A DNA stretch of 64,000 nt, from assembly GCF_001610835.1 (NCBI RefSeq), contig NZ_CP011270.1, positions 6,590,001 to 6,654,000 on the forward strand. Reading direction: 5' to 3'. A program made the translations under genes and the position numbers. Below are positions 23,824-35,850 of this stretch, piece by piece (within the stretch, counting starts at the first letter, position 1; every line of letters begins with the position of its first letter). Source of the stretch: Planctomyces sp. SH-PL14 (GTDB lineage Bacteria > Planctomycetota > Planctomycetia > Planctomycetales > Planctomycetaceae). Below the pieces are notes generated by a model. That model ran no database searches. It was not told the origin of the DNA and saw nothing but the letters and a program-made list of their open reading frames with translations.

Positions 23824-23935
23824 GGAAACACGAAGACACCAAGGAGGCACGAAGGACACAAAGAATCGAGAGCAAGTGCATGCTTTCTCCTCTTCGTGAT
23901 CTTGGTGCCTCCTTCGTGTCTTGGTGTTTAGTCTC
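23824..23935. repeat. Inverted repeat of CACCAAGG/CACGAAGG words (before the MoxR gene)
   Basis: Left arm about 23824-23862 and right arm about 23895-23935 pair over roughly 40 bases with a few mismatches. Both consist of words such as AACACGAAGACACCAAGGAG. It could form a long hairpin in the transcript between the DUF4159 and MoxR genes. The same word family occurs at 38937-39045 and, more diverged, at 32275-32455. Confidence 0.75.
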
Positions 23936-23952
23936 CTAACAGCGAGCCAAGA

Positions 23953-24960
<1,008 letters not shown>

Positions 24961-25009
24961 CGGTGCGTCGCGGCCGGGCTGTTGAGTCTCCTTCGTTGAA
25001 CTGCTTGGA

Positions 25010-25981
25010 ATGCCGAAAGCCAACCCCATCTCCGCCGCGGCCACTGCGACCGGCCGCTCCTATCTCGATCCCGCGACGCTGATGCGGATCAAGAACCTGG
25101 AGCTCCGCGCGCGGCTCGTGGTCGAAGGTTTTCTGAGCGGGATGCACCGCAGTCCGTACCACGGCTTCTCGGTCGAGTTCACGGAGTATCGCCAGTACAC
25201 GCCGGGGGACGACCCGCGGTATCTCGACTGGAAACTCTATGCCCGGAGCGACCGGTACTACCTCAAGCGGTTCGAGGACGAGACCAATCTGCGGTGCTAC
25301 CTGCTCGTCGACCTCAGCCGGTCGATGAGCTACGGATCGCTCGACTACGACAAGGCGACTTACGCCAAGACCGCGGCCGCGACGATCGCCTACTTCCTGG
25401 CCCAGCAGCGGGACGGCGTGGGGCTCGTCACCTTCGACCGGGAGATCCACGACTACCTGCCGGCGCGGTATCGCCCAGGGCATCTCCACAGGATCTTCGT
25501 CGCTCTCGAACGGGCCCCGGCCGGGACCGCGACCGATATCGCCGCGCCGCTGGAGCAGATTGCCAAGACCGCCCGCAAGCGGGGGATGGTGGTCCTCCTC
25601 TCCGATCTCCTGGCGCCCCCCGAGATGCTGGAGGTCCGCCTCGGCTATCTCCGGTCGCAAGGGCACGAGGTCGTCCTGCTGCGGACGCTCGATCCGGCCG
25701 AGCGGGACTTCCCGTTCCAGGACCCGACGATGTTTCAGGACGTCGAGACCGGACGGGAGCTGTATGTCGACCCGGACGCGATCCGCGGCCAGTACCGCGA
25801 GCGGTTCGCCGCCCACGCCGAGTCGCTCAAGACCCTCTGCAGCCGGTTGGGGGTCGACCTCTATGACCTCACGACCGATCAGCCCCTGGAGCACGCCCTC
25901 TTCGATCTCCTGAACGCCCGGATGCGCCGCGGCCGGCAGGTCGCCCGGCGTCCGGCGGTCCGCGGAAGGGGGGCCAGCTGA
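25010..25981 (+). CDS. DUF58 (vWA-like) protein
   Basis: 323 residues. The DUF58 signature EYRQYTPGDDPRYLDWKLYA at about 59-78 is followed by RSDRYYLKRFEDE and a vWA MIDAS DLSRS at 101-105 (DxSxS). DUF58 proteins are the standard partner of MoxR ATPases and probably bring metal-dependent adhesion surfaces to the complex. No membrane segment is seen, so it is probably cytoplasmic. The stop codon overlaps the next start (TGATG), pointing to translational coupling. Confidence 0.92.
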   Translation: MPKANPISAAATATGRSYLDPATLMRIKNLELRARLVVEGFLSGMHRSPYHGFSVEFTEYRQYTPGDDPRYLDWKLYARSDRYYLKRFEDETNLRCYLLVDLSRSMSYGSLDYDKATYAKTAAATIAYFLAQQRDGVGLVTFDREIHDYLPARYRPGHLHRIFVALERAPAGTATDIAAPLEQIAKTARKRGMVVLLSDLLAPPEMLEVRLGYLRSQGHEVVLLRTLDPAERDFPFQDPTMFQDVETGRELYVDPDAIRGQYRERFAAHAESLKTLCSRLGVDLYDLTTDQPLEHALFDLLNARMRRGRQVARRPAVRGRGAS

Positions 25982-28098
25982 TGGGACTCCTCGCTCCGCT
26001 CTACCTCGCCGGGCTCGCCGCGCTGTCGCTGCCGCTGGTCCTGCACCTGATCCGCCGGACCCCCAAGGGGAAGCAGGTCTTCAGCTCGCTGATGTTCCTC
26101 TCGCCGACCCCGCCGCGGCTCACCCGCCGCAGCCGGCTCGACCAGATTTTTCTCCTCCTGATGCGGCTGGGCGTCCTGGCCCTCCTGGCCCTCGCCTTCA
26201 CACGGCCGTTCCTCCGCGAGTCGGCTCTCCTTTCGGTAAGCGACCTACCGCGACGGCGGATTGCGATCCTCGTCGACGGCAGCGCCAGCCTTCGCCGCGG
26301 CGACCTGTGGCAGCAGGCGATCGCGAAGGTCGAAGACGAACTCAAGCAGGTTTCGCCGCAGGACGATGTCGCCCTGTTCCGGTTTAGCGACCGGCTGGAG
26401 ACGGTCGTCGGTTTCGACCGCGATCCCTCGGTCGATGAAGCGGCCGCCGCGCAGCTTCTGCTGACGAGCGCGCGGGAGATGAAGCCGACCTGGAGCACGG
26501 GAGACCTGGGGCTGGCGCTGACGACGCTCGCCGGGGAGCTCGATGCGTCGAGCGACGTCCAGCAGTCCCTCTCCGAGCCGCAGATCATTCTCATCAGCGA
26601 CCTTCAGAAGGGGAGCCGGCTCGAAGCCCTCCAGGCGTATGAGTGGCCCGAGCGGGTCCGCGTCGTTTCCCGACTCCTCGTGCCTGCCAAGACCTCGAAT
26701 GCCGCCGTGCAGCTCCTTTCCACAGCGGCGGACGAGCCGAACGCCGAGCCGCGGGTCAAGGTGGCGAGCGCCGCCGATTCGACGGTCGATCAGTTCTTCG
26801 TCCGCTGGGGGACCGCGACGGACACCGGCGGGTCGAAGGAGACGGACGTCGCGGTCTACGTCCCGGCGGGCGAGAGCCGCGTCGTGAAGCTCCCCCGGCC
26901 GGAAGGGAACGCCGTCTTCGACCGGATCATCCTCCACGGCGACGATCACGAGTTCGACAACACGCACTACGTCGTCCCGCTCGCGAAGCCGACCGTCCTG
27001 ATTCCGTACTACGGCCCCGAGAAAGCGGATGACCCCAATGGGCTGCGGTACTACCTTCAGATCGCGACCCTCGACGACCCGTATCGGGCGATCGAGATCG
27101 TCGATGGAACGGCCGACGCTCCGGCTGCTGTCGCGCCCACCGTCACCGTGGTTACGGCGCGGCCTGACGATGCGATCGCCGATCGTCACCTGAAAGAGGT
27201 CGAGCGGGGAGGGACGCTGCTCGTCGTGGCGGCGAGCGACGGGACACGGGACTGGCTGCCGCGGCTCCTCGACGACATCGAGATCCCGGAGGCCGCCGCC
27301 GCGAAGGGGAAGCGGGAGTATCAGCTGCTCGGCGAGATCGACTTCACGCATCCGCTGTTCGTTCCGTTCGCCAATCCCCGCTACAGCGACTTCACGAAGA
27401 TCCACTTCTGGCAGCATCGCCCGGTCCGGCTGACCGAAGGGGGAGCGAGCCGCGCCGTGGCCCGCTTCGATGACGGCACGCCGTGGCTCATCGAGCGTCC
27501 GGTCGGGAAGGGGCGGATTCTCGTCATGACGAGTGGCTGGCACCCGGACGACAGCCAGCTCGCCCTCTCCAGCAAGTTCGTGATGTTCCTCGGCGGGCTG
27601 CTCGACCAGACCCTCGGCTCGGCGCGGCTGCTCGCCGGGATTCCGGTCGGCACGCCGATTCCTCTGCGAGCGGACCGCGATGGTCCGGTTGTCGTCCGAA
27701 CGCCCGAGGGGCGGGATGTGTCGGTTCCTCTCTCCGAGGCCCGGTTCACAGAAACGACCGTCCCCGGGATCTACCAGGGCGCGGGGATGGGGGCGGATGT
27801 GCTCACGTTCGCGGTCAATATTCCGGCGGCCGAGAGCGACACCGCGCCGCTTCCGGTCGAGTCGCTGGAACAGCTTGGCGTGCGGCTCGGGACGGTCGCC
27901 ACGCAGACCGAGCGGCTCGGAAAGATCCGCCAGCAGCGGGACGTCGAACTCGAAAGCCGCCAGAAAGTCTGGCGGTGGCTGATCGTCGGCTGCCTGCTCC
28001 TCGTCATGGCAGAAACCTGGTACTCGGGACGTTCGGCCGCGGGATCGCCCCCCTCCGGCTCCGCGTCGCCGCTCCCTTCGGCTGAGGCCGTCACATGA
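25981..28098 (+). CDS. BatA-like membrane protein with vWA domain
   Basis: 705 residues. N-terminal BatA-type double membrane segment: a helix in LAPLYLAGLAALSLPLVLHL, the charged loop RRTPKGKQVFSSLMFLS, and IFLLLMRLGVLALLALAF. A vWA domain follows with DGSAS at 99-103 (DxSxS MIDAS). A later region (GGTLLVVAASDGTRDWLPRL; GRILVMTSGWHPDDSQLALS) looks like a class-I glutamine-amidotransferase-like fold. A last membrane helix near residue 663 (WRWLIVGCLLLVMAETWYSG). It is linked to DUF58 upstream and overlaps the next gene by 4 bases (ATGA). Likely an inner-membrane anchor for the MoxR machine. Confidence 0.87.
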   Translation: MGLLAPLYLAGLAALSLPLVLHLIRRTPKGKQVFSSLMFLSPTPPRLTRRSRLDQIFLLLMRLGVLALLALAFTRPFLRESALLSVSDLPRRRIAILVDGSASLRRGDLWQQAIAKVEDELKQVSPQDDVALFRFSDRLETVVGFDRDPSVDEAAAAQLLLTSAREMKPTWSTGDLGLALTTLAGELDASSDVQQSLSEPQIILISDLQKGSRLEALQAYEWPERVRVVSRLLVPAKTSNAAVQLLSTAADEPNAEPRVKVASAADSTVDQFFVRWGTATDTGGSKETDVAVYVPAGESRVVKLPRPEGNAVFDRIILHGDDHEFDNTHYVVPLAKPTVLIPYYGPEKADDPNGLRYYLQIATLDDPYRAIEIVDGTADAPAAVAPTVTVVTARPDDAIADRHLKEVERGGTLLVVAASDGTRDWLPRLLDDIEIPEAAAAKGKREYQLLGEIDFTHPLFVPFANPRYSDFTKIHFWQHRPVRLTEGGASRAVARFDDGTPWLIERPVGKGRILVMTSGWHPDDSQLALSSKFVMFLGGLLDQTLGSARLLAGIPVGTPIPLRADRDGPVVVRTPEGRDVSVPLSEARFTETTVPGIYQGAGMGADVLTFAVNIPAAESDTAPLPVESLEQLGVRLGTVATQTERLGKIRQQRDVELESRQKVWRWLIVGCLLLVMAETWYSGRSAAGSPPSGSASPLPSAEAVT

Positions 28099-32473: not shown

Positions 32474-34834
32474 ATGCTTCTTCTGTTGCCCCTCGCCGCC
32501 ATTGTCCTGGGAGCCCGCACCTGGCTCGCTCCTGCGATCCTGCTGATCGCGGCCGCGCTCGCGATGCTTGCCTGGAATCTCTCCCGCGGCCGGCCGCGGG
32601 GCTGGGCCGGCGTCGTCGCGCCGATCCTCAAGTCCCTGGGGATCGTCCTGCTCGGCGTCTGTCTCGTCGAGCCGCTCTACACCGGCACGCGGCCCCGGCC
32701 GGGGAGCAACCTGTTCCTCGTCGTGGCCGATACGAGCCGCAGCCTCCAGCTCACGAACCCCGGCGAGCGGGAGTCGCGGGGGGCGGGGATTCAGAAGCAG
32801 CTCGCTCCCGATGCGGAGTGGCTGACGCGGCTGGGGCAGGATTTCGATGTCCGCCGCTACACCTTCGATTCGTCCGTCCAGCCAGTCGAGGATTTTTCGA
32901 AGCTCGAATTCGAAGGGGAGTCCTCGTCGATCGCGACGACGCTCGCCTCCCTCCGCGACCGTTTTCGCGGACAGCCGGTCGCCGGGATCCTGCTCCTCTC
33001 GGACGGCAACGCGACCGACCTCGCGGATGACGCGGGGGACTGGAAGTCGCTGCCGCCGGTCTATCCCGTGAAGGTCGCCTCGGGGCAGGAATCACCCGAT
33101 GTCTCGGTCTCCGGCGTCTCGGTCACGACGACAAACTTCGACGCCGCGCCGGTCACGATCCAGGCGGAGTTTGCGGCGAAGGCGGTGACGGGGAAGAAGA
33201 TCGTCGTCCGCGTCGTGGACGAGGCGGGGAAAGAGGTCGAGCGGCGGACGCTGGCGGCGGACGGAAAGCGGCTTTCGGAGCGGTTCCTCATCAAGCCCGA
33301 GAAGGCGGGGATCAGTTTCTACCAGGTCGAAGCGGCCCTCGAAGGGGAAGAGAACAAGAAGCCCGGCGAGTTCACGAGCGAGGAGGCGACGCTCGCCAAC
33401 AACCGCCGCTACGCGACGGTCGACCGCGGCGGGGGCCCGTTCCGCGTTCTCTATGTGGGTGGCTCCCCGAACTGGGAGTACAAGTTCCTCCGCCGCTCGG
33501 TCGAGTCGGACGACGAGGTGAAGCTCGTCGGGCTCCTGCGGGTCGCCAAAAAGGAGCCGAAGTTCAACTTCCTGAGCCGCACGGGGGAGCGGACGAACCC
33601 CCTCTTTCGCGGCTTCGGCAACGACAAGGACGAGACCGCCGAGCAGTACGACGAGCCGGTCCTGATCCGGCTGGGGGCCGAGGACCAGGAGGAGCTCAAG
33701 GGCGGGTTTCCCAAGAGTTCGGAAGATCTCTTCCGCTACCACGCGATCGTCCTCGACGACATCGAGGCGGCGTTTTTCAACCAGGACCAGCTTTCGCTGA
33801 TCGAGCGGTTCGTCAGCCAGCGGGGCGGCGGACTCCTGATGCTCGGCGGCAAGGACTCGTTCGCCGAAGGGGGTTATGTCCGGACGCCCGTCGGAGACAT
33901 GCTGCCGGTCTATCTCGACCGGGCCGCCCCTTCCGAGACGCCGGGGGAGCATCGTCTCAAGCTGACCCGCGAGGGCTGGGTCCAGCCCTGGGTCCGGGTG
34001 AAGGCCAACGAGCAGGAAGAAGAGAAACGGCTCGCCACGATGCCCCCCTTCCGGTCGTTCAACCGGATCGAGTCGATCAAGCCGGGGGCTTCGGTCCTGG
34101 CGGAGGTCGAGACGGAGGAGGGGGGCTCGCGACCGGCGCTGGCGGTCCAGCCGTTCGGCCGGGGTCGGGTCGGCTCGATCCTGATCGGCGACCTCTGGCG
34201 GTGGGAGCTCAAGCGGGACGAGCCGAAGGACAGCGATTTCGAAAAGTCCTGGCGGCAGACGGTCCGCTGGCTGGTGGCGGACGTGCCGCAACGGGTTGAG
34301 GTCGATGTGAAGCGGAAGACGGGACCCGGTCTCGCGCCGGTGGACCTCGTGATCCGGACGCGGGACAAGGAGTACGCCCCGCTCGACAACGCGACGATCA
34401 CGGTCGCCGTGAAAACGCCCGACGGGCGGGAGATCCAGCTCGTCGCGGAGGCGAGCGACCGGACGCCGGGAGAATACGTGGCGAGCTTTGCGCCCCGCGT
34501 CGCCGGGACCTACCGGGCCGAGGTCAAGGCGACCGATGCCGACGGGAGCGAGGTCGGGGGGCGTTCGACCGGTTGGGCGGTCGAGCCTGAGACCGAGGAG
34601 TTCTCGCGGCTCACCGGGAACGAGGCTCTCCTGACCCGGATGGCCCAGGAGAGCGGCGGCGAAGTGCTGTCGCCCGATGGACTCGGAGACTTCGTGACGG
34701 GTCTCCCCAATCGCAAGATCCCGGTCGTGGAGAACTGGACGTACCCGCTGTGGCACCAGTGGAGCGTGGCGACGCTGGCGATGGTGTGCCTGATCGGGGA
34801 ATGGGCGCTGCGGCGGATGAAAGGGGTGCCGTGA
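32474..34834 (+). CDS. Membrane protein with vWA MIDAS and glutamine-amidotransferase-like domain
   Basis: 786 residues. N-terminal membrane segments (LLLLPLAAIVLGARTWLAPA; LAPAILLIAAALAMLAW; ILKSLGIVLLGVCLVEPLY) precede a vWA MIDAS DTSRS at 86-90. A middle domain (GPFRVLYVGGSPNWEYKFLR; FVSQRGGGLLMLGGKDSFAE) has the class-I glutamine-amidotransferase-like fold; the usual Cys/His pair is not evident. A bacterial Ig-like region follows (RDKEYAPLDNATITVAVKTP) and a final membrane helix (WSVATLAMVCLIGEWAL). Its stop overlaps the next start (TGATG). It belongs to the MoxR/DUF58 cluster and is likely a membrane adapter of that complex. Confidence 0.85.
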   Translation: MLLLLPLAAIVLGARTWLAPAILLIAAALAMLAWNLSRGRPRGWAGVVAPILKSLGIVLLGVCLVEPLYTGTRPRPGSNLFLVVADTSRSLQLTNPGERESRGAGIQKQLAPDAEWLTRLGQDFDVRRYTFDSSVQPVEDFSKLEFEGESSSIATTLASLRDRFRGQPVAGILLLSDGNATDLADDAGDWKSLPPVYPVKVASGQESPDVSVSGVSVTTTNFDAAPVTIQAEFAAKAVTGKKIVVRVVDEAGKEVERRTLAADGKRLSERFLIKPEKAGISFYQVEAALEGEENKKPGEFTSEEATLANNRRYATVDRGGGPFRVLYVGGSPNWEYKFLRRSVESDDEVKLVGLLRVAKKEPKFNFLSRTGERTNPLFRGFGNDKDETAEQYDEPVLIRLGAEDQEELKGGFPKSSEDLFRYHAIVLDDIEAAFFNQDQLSLIERFVSQRGGGLLMLGGKDSFAEGGYVRTPVGDMLPVYLDRAAPSETPGEHRLKLTREGWVQPWVRVKANEQEEEKRLATMPPFRSFNRIESIKPGASVLAEVETEEGGSRPALAVQPFGRGRVGSILIGDLWRWELKRDEPKDSDFEKSWRQTVRWLVADVPQRVEVDVKRKTGPGLAPVDLVIRTRDKEYAPLDNATITVAVKTPDGREIQLVAEASDRTPGEYVASFAPRVAGTYRAEVKATDADGSEVGGRSTGWAVEPETEEFSRLTGNEALLTRMAQESGGEVLSPDGLGDFVTGLPNRKIPVVENWTYPLWHQWSVATLAMVCLIGEWALRRMKGVP

Positions 34835-35850
34835 TGGAAGCGGATCGACAGATCGGGATGGTCCTTCGCGGCGGCGGACTCCGGACGCTCTGCTTTTGGG
34901 CGTGTGCCTTTGTCCTGCTGGTGTCGAGCGGTCCGCTCTCGGCCGAGGCTCCGACGCCGGAAGCGGCCACGGTGATCGTTGTCGTCGGGGCGGCCGGGGA
35001 AGAGTCATTCGCGGAACCGTTCCGGACCTGGAGCGGGAACTGGAAGGCCGCCGCGGAGAAGGCCAAGGCGGAGTTGCAGGTGATCGGTCTCGACGACGCT
35101 GGCGAGACGAGCGACCGGGATCGGCTGAAGAAGGCTCTGACGGACGCGCAGGGCCGCACCTCTCCACTCTGGCTGGTTCTGATCGGACACGGGACGTTTG
35201 ATGGAAAGGTCGCCCGGTTCAATCTGCGGGGGCCCGATCTGACCCCCGGAGACCTCTCCGAATGGCTCCGGCCGGTCAAGCGGCCGGTGGCGGTCATCAA
35301 CAGTGCGTCGGCGAGCGGCCCGTTCCTGGCGGAGCTTTCGGGGCCCGGCCGGGTGGTCGTCACGGCGACCCGGAGCGGGCATGAGTACAACTTCGCCCGC
35401 CTGGGGGGCTATCTGGCGGAGGCGATTGCCGATCCGGCGGCGGATCTCGACAAGGACGAACAGACGTCGCTTCTCGAAGCGTGGCTCGCCGCCGCGGCCC
35501 GGACCGCGGAGTTCTACGCGGGCGACACCCGGCTCCAGACGGAGCACGCCCTGCTTGACGACAACGGCGACAAACTGGGGACGCCACCGGATTTTTTCCA
35601 GGGGATCCGGCCGGTCAAGGGGGCGAAGGAGGGGGCGGCGCTCGACGGCCCTTTGGCGGCCCGGCTCGTGCTCGTTCCCGGAAATCGCGAGGAAACGCTT
35701 TCGCCGGAGCAGCGAACCCGGCGGGATGAGATCGAAAAGACCCTCGCCGCGATGCGGAGCCGCCGGGCCGACATGGACGAAAGCCGCTATCTTGAGCAAA
35801 TCGAGCCGCTGCTCGTGGAACTGGCCCGGATCTATGCCGGGGAGAAGTAG
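34834..35850 (+). CDS. C13-peptidase/caspase-like exported protein, probably inactive
   Basis: 338 residues from an ATG that shares one base with the upstream stop. A signal or anchor segment (LCFWACAFVLLVSSGPLSA) leads to a caspase-hemoglobinase-type fold. The catalytic-His strand is present (LWLVLIGHGTFDGKVARFNL, H119). The strand that normally carries the nucleophilic Cys reads VINSASASGPF, so the Cys position (C-x-S-G) is occupied by S159. The protein is therefore probably a non-proteolytic member, or a Ser variant. It closes the operon and is encoded with vWA partners, which suggests a structural or binding role in the periplasm. Confidence 0.75.
   Translation: MEADRQIGMVLRGGGLRTLCFWACAFVLLVSSGPLSAEAPTPEAATVIVVVGAAGEESFAEPFRTWSGNWKAAAEKAKAELQVIGLDDAGETSDRDRLKKALTDAQGRTSPLWLVLIGHGTFDGKVARFNLRGPDLTPGDLSEWLRPVKRPVAVINSASASGPFLAELSGPGRVVVTATRSGHEYNFARLGGYLAEAIADPAADLDKDEQTSLLEAWLAAAARTAEFYAGDTRLQTEHALLDDNGDKLGTPPDFFQGIRPVKGAKEGAALDGPLAARLVLVPGNREETLSPEQRTRRDEIEKTLAAMRSRRADMDESRYLEQIEPLLVELARIYAGEK

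Follow-up and report, generated by a model that had tools for sequence, protein, structure and literature searches.

In the genome of Planctomyces sp. SH-PL14 we analysed a window of 64,000 nucleotides (NZ_CP011270.1, positions 6,590,001 to 6,654,000), in which a run of genes on the forward strand ends with the gene of a 338-residue protein, P0001 (Table 1). A sequence-only reading had described P0001 as a C13/caspase-like protein that retains the histidine strand, LIGHGTFDG with H119, and carries serine (S159, within INSASASGPF) in place of the catalytic cysteine; the open reading frame and both motifs are present as that reading gave them. The gene's ATG and the TGA of the gene before it have one base in common (TGATG, 34832-34836), an arrangement seen where translation is coupled. 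Judged by eye, the N-terminus resembles an export signal, and the protein is probably secreted. Its sole cysteines, C20 and C24, both lie in the leader, so that the mature protein contains none.

What fold does this protein adopt? No family of Pfam or NCBIfam matched P0001, and Pfam gave no match even at an expectation value (E) of up to 1; the C13 peptidase model (PF01650) found neither P0001 at E <=1 nor any other protein of its genome. Weak matches to this model at E <=1 appeared in 5 of the 24 orthologs of alignment A1 (best E 0.0014) and in 8 of the 81 of alignment A2 (best E 0.021), and when 40 genomes were searched with it, it returned two proteins, in two genomes that have no P0001 ortholog (G029 and G036). 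Sequence searches of solved structures with P0001 or A2 yielded nothing useful; only the cysteine-bearing relatives (alignment A3) could be linked by sequence to metacaspase-4 and legumain. The AlphaFold2 model of P0001, built from an 81-sequence alignment, has a predicted local distance difference test score of 88.1 and a predicted template modelling score of 0.83, and its top solved structure in Foldseek is legumain (E 2.2e-6). In VIA-align the model superposes on legumain with Z 19.2 and a root-mean-square deviation of 2.5 A over 193 aligned residues (model residues 44-287), and, lower in the ranking, on metacaspase-4 (Z 17.9), glycosylphosphatidylinositol transamidase (Z 16.1) and caspase-8 (Z 15.6); these comparisons cover residues 42-287 well, the C-terminal hairpin being outside the tested region. 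Rather than an unrelated fold, P0001 is predicted to have the caspase/haemoglobinase (clan CD) fold that had been proposed for it, with legumain as the nearest structure.

The register of the C-x-S-G motif had to be tested because the majority motif of the family, N-C-A-S-A-S-G, leaves Cys157 as a possible nucleophile. The cysteine-bearing relative L152 (NPCHSGGF) aligns at this loop with no gap and places its cysteine onto S159, and a comparison of A2 and A3, profile against profile (hhalign), gives the same pairing with probability 99.9 and E 8.4e-32. Searched against the PDB, a profile of the five cysteine-bearing relatives hits Arabidopsis metacaspase-4 (E 7.1e-10), and the cysteine of this profile aligns with the metacaspase-4 cysteine in 6w8s, which is alanine in the C139A mutant 6w8r. 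The very distant L158 (NSCYSGGF, 29 bits) needs a one-residue gap at the nucleophile loop. By these alignments S159 occupies the catalytic nucleophile column, standing where C-x-S-G proteases carry cysteine, as the sequence-only reading held; and no cysteine elsewhere in P0001 fills the active site.

The variation of this column across the family was followed in 268 loci, which became 184 distinct members and 51 distant relatives after rows identical over a 180-residue stretch had been merged; no pair of members is >=99% identical. The 184 members, with P0001 counted, carry Ser at column 159 in 168 cases, Ala in 14 and Pro in 2, and never Cys; clustering at 90% identity leaves 171 clusters, with Ser in 155, Ala in 14 and Pro in 2. 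Serine is thus the family norm, and on this count we rejected the notion that the window genome had come by S159 accidentally; the residue is, however, neither universal nor rare. Each of the 183 members whose sequence reaches the H119 column has His there, and the column of S161 is Ser in 182 of 184. Could another cysteine have assumed the role of the family nucleophile, leaving the window copy as a dead variant? Column 157 is Cys in 118 of the 184 members and column 160 in 16, which makes C157 or C160 conceivable. But 63 members have no Cys in columns 155-165, 29 have none from column 45 onward (two of the rows are partial), and both alignments with cysteine-bearing proteins set the catalytic column at 159. 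We consider this explanation extremely improbable, and C157 as the true nucleophile was set aside on the strength of these counts and the two alignments.

Serine and alanine or proline interchanged at column 159 at least 12 times on a quick tree built without columns 157-159, a count that gives no direction of change; FastTree likewise gives 12. H119 is unchanged on the tree, and all 16 members that lack the serine keep the histidine. Eleven columns never change (W113, G118, H119, D135, D204, S212, E215, E237, D243, D246 and D271), and 58 of 289 change less often than S159; at the old site the changes number 0 for G118, 0 for H119, 1 for G120 and 2 for S161. The 51 distant relatives are more varied at column 159: Ser 14, Pro 12, Cys 6, Thr 5, Ala 4, Asn 4, Gly 3, and Glu, Arg and Tyr once each, the Tyr being that of L158, whose Cys is shifted by the gap. 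Of those with neither Ser nor Cys there, L158 excluded, 27 of 30 keep the His. A mixed history of the column is possible. Four of the loci, all from one planctomycete family code (f49), encode proteins of some 1420-1520 residues (L157, L159, L161 and L162), in which a faintly similar domain (E 8e-10 to 2e-5) has Asn on the nucleophile column.

The persistence of the histidine in members and relatives that have lost Ser or Cys indicates that it is not retained for the sake of the nucleophile. With at least 12 interchanges over an unchanging H119, and with the histidine in every serine-less member, a Ser-His catalytic dyad is therefore unlikely and a pseudo-protease is favoured; such a pattern is what one would expect if the loop of a pseudo-enzyme accommodates only small residues, and is unlike that of a dyad. 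A functional serine hydrolase with the caspase/legumain fold, in which H119 activates S159, perhaps with a need for Ca2+ or for a substrate presented by a partner, and whose Ala and Pro lineages are inactive, would account for the prevalence of Ser over two phyla, for the constancy of H119 and S161 and for the intact predicted fold. It sits poorly, however, with the interchanges and the 58 better-kept columns, and with relatives that have Pro, Ala, Thr or Gly at column 159 and mostly keep the His. To our knowledge there is no Ser-type clan CD peptidase, and this too counts against it; we regard such an enzyme as unlikely.

The sequence-only reading had taken the fixed place of P0001 at the end of a MoxR/vWA operon as a sign of a selected role, and this place is borne out both by gene order and by adjacency to the upstream gene, hereafter the partner. 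In a set of related loci that is the best 80 of 556 confirmed relatives and leans toward the window's own kind, every gene found lies on the same strand and in the order MoxR, DUF58, BatA, DUF4175-like, GATase1-like, P0001 (80/80 loci, the MoxR and DUF58 labels being by reading); all six genes are present in 31 of the 80, many contigs ending earlier. Out of 183 loci examined for adjacency, 40 with less than 400 nucleotides upstream were left aside; among the other 143 the partner lies within 400 nucleotides in 136 and within 800 in 2 more, and it is adjacent in 12 of the 13 serine-less members with room upstream. Across the 40 genomes, the window's own included, P0001 has an ortholog in 24 and the partner in 23 (cut-off above 300 bits, the next best match scoring 152 bits); all 23 also have the P0001 ortholog and 16 genomes have neither gene, so that the two are jointly present or jointly absent in 39 of 40. 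The exception, G012, has a P0001 ortholog that lies 56 bases from a contig end and no partner.

Table 1. Genes of the operon and parts of P0001, in coordinates of the window
Feature	Coordinates	Strand	Remarks
MoxR-type AAA+ operon gene	23932..24957	+	label by reading; stop-to-stop frame
DUF58-like operon gene	24986..25978	+	label by reading; stop-to-stop frame
BatA N-terminal/vWA operon gene	25981..28098	+	
DUF4175-like operon gene, 1385 residues	28095..32252	+	
GATase1-like (PF07090) upstream partner, 786 residues	32474..34834	+	vWA label from reading, not Pfam
P0001, predicted legumain-fold protein and putative pseudo-protease, 338 residues	34834..35850	+	probably secreted; no Cys in mature part
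Leader of P0001, about residues 1-37		+	judged by eye
Predicted clan CD (legumain-like) domain, residues 42-287	34957..35694	+	range of VIA-align matches
H119, catalytic His column	35188..35190	+	His in 183/183 members covering the column
S157	35302..35304	+	column is Cys in 118/184 and Thr in 38/184; Ser in P0001
S159, nucleophile column	35308..35310	+	Ser 168, Ala 14, Pro 2 among 184 members
EF-hand-like loop, D204-x-D206-x-D208-x-Q210-x-S212-x-x-E215	35443..35478	+	putative Ca2+ site
Second acidic loop, DDNGD, residues 242-246	35557..35571	+	D243 in 184/184; D246 in 183/183 covering
C-terminal helical hairpin, helices 291-309 and 316-335	35704..35838	+	AlphaFold2 model

The partner and its neighbourhood present further peculiarities. 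At four loci (L034, L080, L086 and L097) 5.6-10 kb of upstream sequence was available, and the partner gene was not found there. Class I amidotransferases have a G-x-C-x-G elbow. The GATase1-like domain of the partner (32474-34834) reads LLMLGGKDSF in that place, and it may also be a dead enzyme fold. The window genome holds a paralog of P0001 outside the window (L029; with its flanks, G000:C1:5977089-5988166), with Ala on the nucleophile column. Additional genes of GATase1-like and DUF4175-like type lie close to it on the opposite strand, and similar neighbourhoods occur in G001 and G038, as though every copy of the BatA-type operon had a legumain-fold partner to itself.

Besides the old active site, P0001 has an EF-hand-like loop, D204-L-D206-K-D208-x-Q-x-S212-L-L-E215, with the spacing of an EF-hand. 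All 184 members have an acidic residue or Asn at its positions 1, 3, 5 and 12, and among the first 104 members Thr prevails at position 8. A strict EF-hand pattern matches 18 of the 51 distant relatives, where shuffled sequences would give 0.04. Pfam EF-hand models are touched by 3/24 members of A1 and 9/81 of A2, and also by L028, below the cut-off where a score was shown. The residue pattern suggests that Ca2+ may be bound at this loop, and Ca2+-dependent enzymes are reported within clan CD, namely metacaspases and gingipain R (PMC4357240). The C-terminal hairpin of the model is possibly a docking element.

Does the conservation of the acidic loops leave any role for the old site? P0001 might be a Ca2+-binding structural subunit whose old active site is without function, Ser, Ala or Pro serving to pack the loop and binding proceeding through the C-terminal hairpin or the acidic loops. 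The tree shows no change at D204, S212, E215, D243, D246 or D271, and only Ser, Ala and Pro occupy column 159, as such a subunit would have it, and a purely structural need for the conserved residues of the old site is possible. The near absence of change at G118, H119, G120 and S161 suggests, however, that the site is kept for something, and we hold this explanation to be very unlikely. A bolder proposal, quite unlikely in our estimate, would make the protein the first serine-nucleophile enzyme of the caspase/legumain fold: a Ca2+-gated periplasmic hydrolase or acyl-transferase with an H119-S159 pair, switched on by its GATase1-like partner, with roughly a tenth of the members now pure scaffold.

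How widespread is the family? With an ortholog in 24 of 40 genomes and loci in two phyla, it is beyond chance. Of 76 distinct loci from the set of 80, record titles assign 36 to Planctomycetota, 37 to Verrucomicrobiota and 1 to Pseudomonadota, with 2 unplaced, and some of these titles may be wrong. Public records of metagenome-assembled genomes titled Klebsiella pneumoniae or Akkermansia muciniphila carry the family (L076, L060, L070 and L071); here, too, the titles may be wrong. Matches above 280 bits were obtained in 34 of the 392 phylum genomes searched, in 91 of 198 from the class and in 13 of 288 from the phylum of a genome with a verrucomicrobial locus, which makes the distribution patchy. 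These whole-genome searches scored few candidates per genome; phylum and class matches above 280 bits that had no locus yet were added to the set, while a few distant matches and fragments (e.g. G325, G209:C37, G780:C151) are not counted.

Serine at the nucleophile position and inheritance with one membrane partner gene together make it most likely that P0001 acts by binding a partner and not by cutting. We think it probable that P0001 is an exported legumain-fold pseudo-protease, the last product of a MoxR/DUF58/BatA/DUF4175-like/vWA-GATase operon, whose task is binding. Of the two alternatives that the sequence-only reading had left, a pseudo-protease or a rare serine variant, the former is favoured by the repeated interchanges, the histidine of the serine-less members and their retained partner, while the rarity of the latter does not stand, serine being the residue of most members. 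Several observations weigh against this explanation. Ser is present in 168 of 184 members and replaced solely by Ala or Pro, which puts S159 within the better-kept fifth of the columns. The partner is missing upstream at 5 of the 143 loci (L014, L034, L080, L086 and L097), and some 94 kb separates the two genes in G001, whose P0001 ortholog (L014) carries Ala. Of the 184 members, 4 match the strict EF-hand pattern and 180 do not, and export is read from the N-terminus.

What, then, might a pseudo-protease do at the end of such an operon? A mechanism can be sketched from what the analysis shows, namely the sequence and its predicted fold, the position of S159, recurrent interchange at that column under a constant His, and the partner linkage. 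With Ser, or Ala or Pro in some relatives, replacing the nucleophile cysteine, the groove would no longer cut. The EF-hand-like acidic loop may hold Ca2+ and so order the old substrate groove and the surface, and the ordered groove would bind a peptide or loop; the GATase1-like membrane protein inherited with P0001, or a client of that protein, is its most likely source. P0001 might then be a periplasmic subunit or sensor of a BatA-type complex worked by MoxR. We conjecture that it reports or holds the state of this complex outside the membrane, by analogy with MoxR/vWA pairs, which are described as chaperone-like, maturing complexes or loading cofactors, as in NorQ/NorD (PMC9976466).

Clan CD pseudo-forms are already known, and so is serine in place of cysteine in pseudo-orthocaspases (PMC6426788) and prokaryotic metacaspases (PMC3501461). 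With legumain and the C13 peptidases P0001 shares the predicted fold over residues 44-287, the G-H-G histidine strand and the S-G after the nucleophile position; unlike them, its family has Ser, Ala or Pro for the Cys (184/184 members), an EF-hand-like loop and a C-terminal hairpin, and P0001 itself has no Pfam C13 match. Legumain, for its part, has an LSAM prodomain (PMC4357240). What characterizes a C13 peptidase is thus present in the predicted fold and the catalytic His and absent at the catalytic Cys, and a clan CD fold with its nucleophile Cys lost, which characterizes a clan CD pseudo-peptidase, is what the family displays. The pattern at columns 119 and 159 suggests that P0001 is without catalytic activity. 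Cyanobacterial pseudo-orthocaspases, which are C14-like, have Tyr-Ser for His-Cys and are presumed inactive (PMC6426788); they are alike in carrying Ser for Cys in a bacterial clan CD protein, but the P0001 family keeps its His (His-Ser), has legumain as the nearest solved fold and is bound to an operon. The main text of that paper does not contain the words Planctomycetota or Verrucomicrobiota, the phyla of the P0001 family. A 2012 survey of prokaryotic metacaspases gives Cys-His conservation of only 64% in Planctomycetes, with Ser the commonest substitute for Cys (PMC3501461); its set comprises C14-type metacaspases, and its main text has neither the word legumain nor EF-hand.

Outside the clan, the papain domain of Plasmodium falciparum SERA5 has Ser for Cys; protease activity was not detected in it, and Ser to Ala was tolerated, while the bulky Arg was not obtained (PMC4671257). 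The natural Ala and Pro variants of the P0001 family are comparable, the likeness being convergent between different clans and folds. MoxR and vWA genes also accompany caspase-like domains in ternary conflict systems (VMAP and others), where many of the domains that serve as effectors are inactive (PMC7159879); P0001, by contrast, is a single-domain protein with a leader, among genes of BatA, DUF58 and DUF4175 type. A further comparison is with the five cysteine-bearing planctomycete relatives (L144, L147, L151, L152 and L267), candidates for active clan CD proteases by their residues. They are homologous over the length of the domain (the A2-A3 comparison above) and have the DDNGD loop in 5/5, but carry Cys on column 159, have a long linker before DDNGD in 4/5 and, in L151 and L267, have no EF-hand-like loop. 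Three of the five have that loop as well. Among the top matches of our literature search, with subscription papers and preprints outside its scope, we found no paper on this C13-like family and no account of the acidic loops, of the link with a BatA-type operon or of recurrent interchange of Ser with Ala/Pro under a conserved His.

The family thus presents a putative legumain-fold pseudo-protease tied to a BatA/MoxR-type operon in two phyla and inherited with one membrane partner. This linkage provides a concrete handle on what the poorly understood BatA/MoxR-type operons do. Across related families this single column holds Cys, Ser, Ala, Pro or Thr, with the His mostly kept, and would constitute a natural series on how a protease can give up cleavage and still retain binding.

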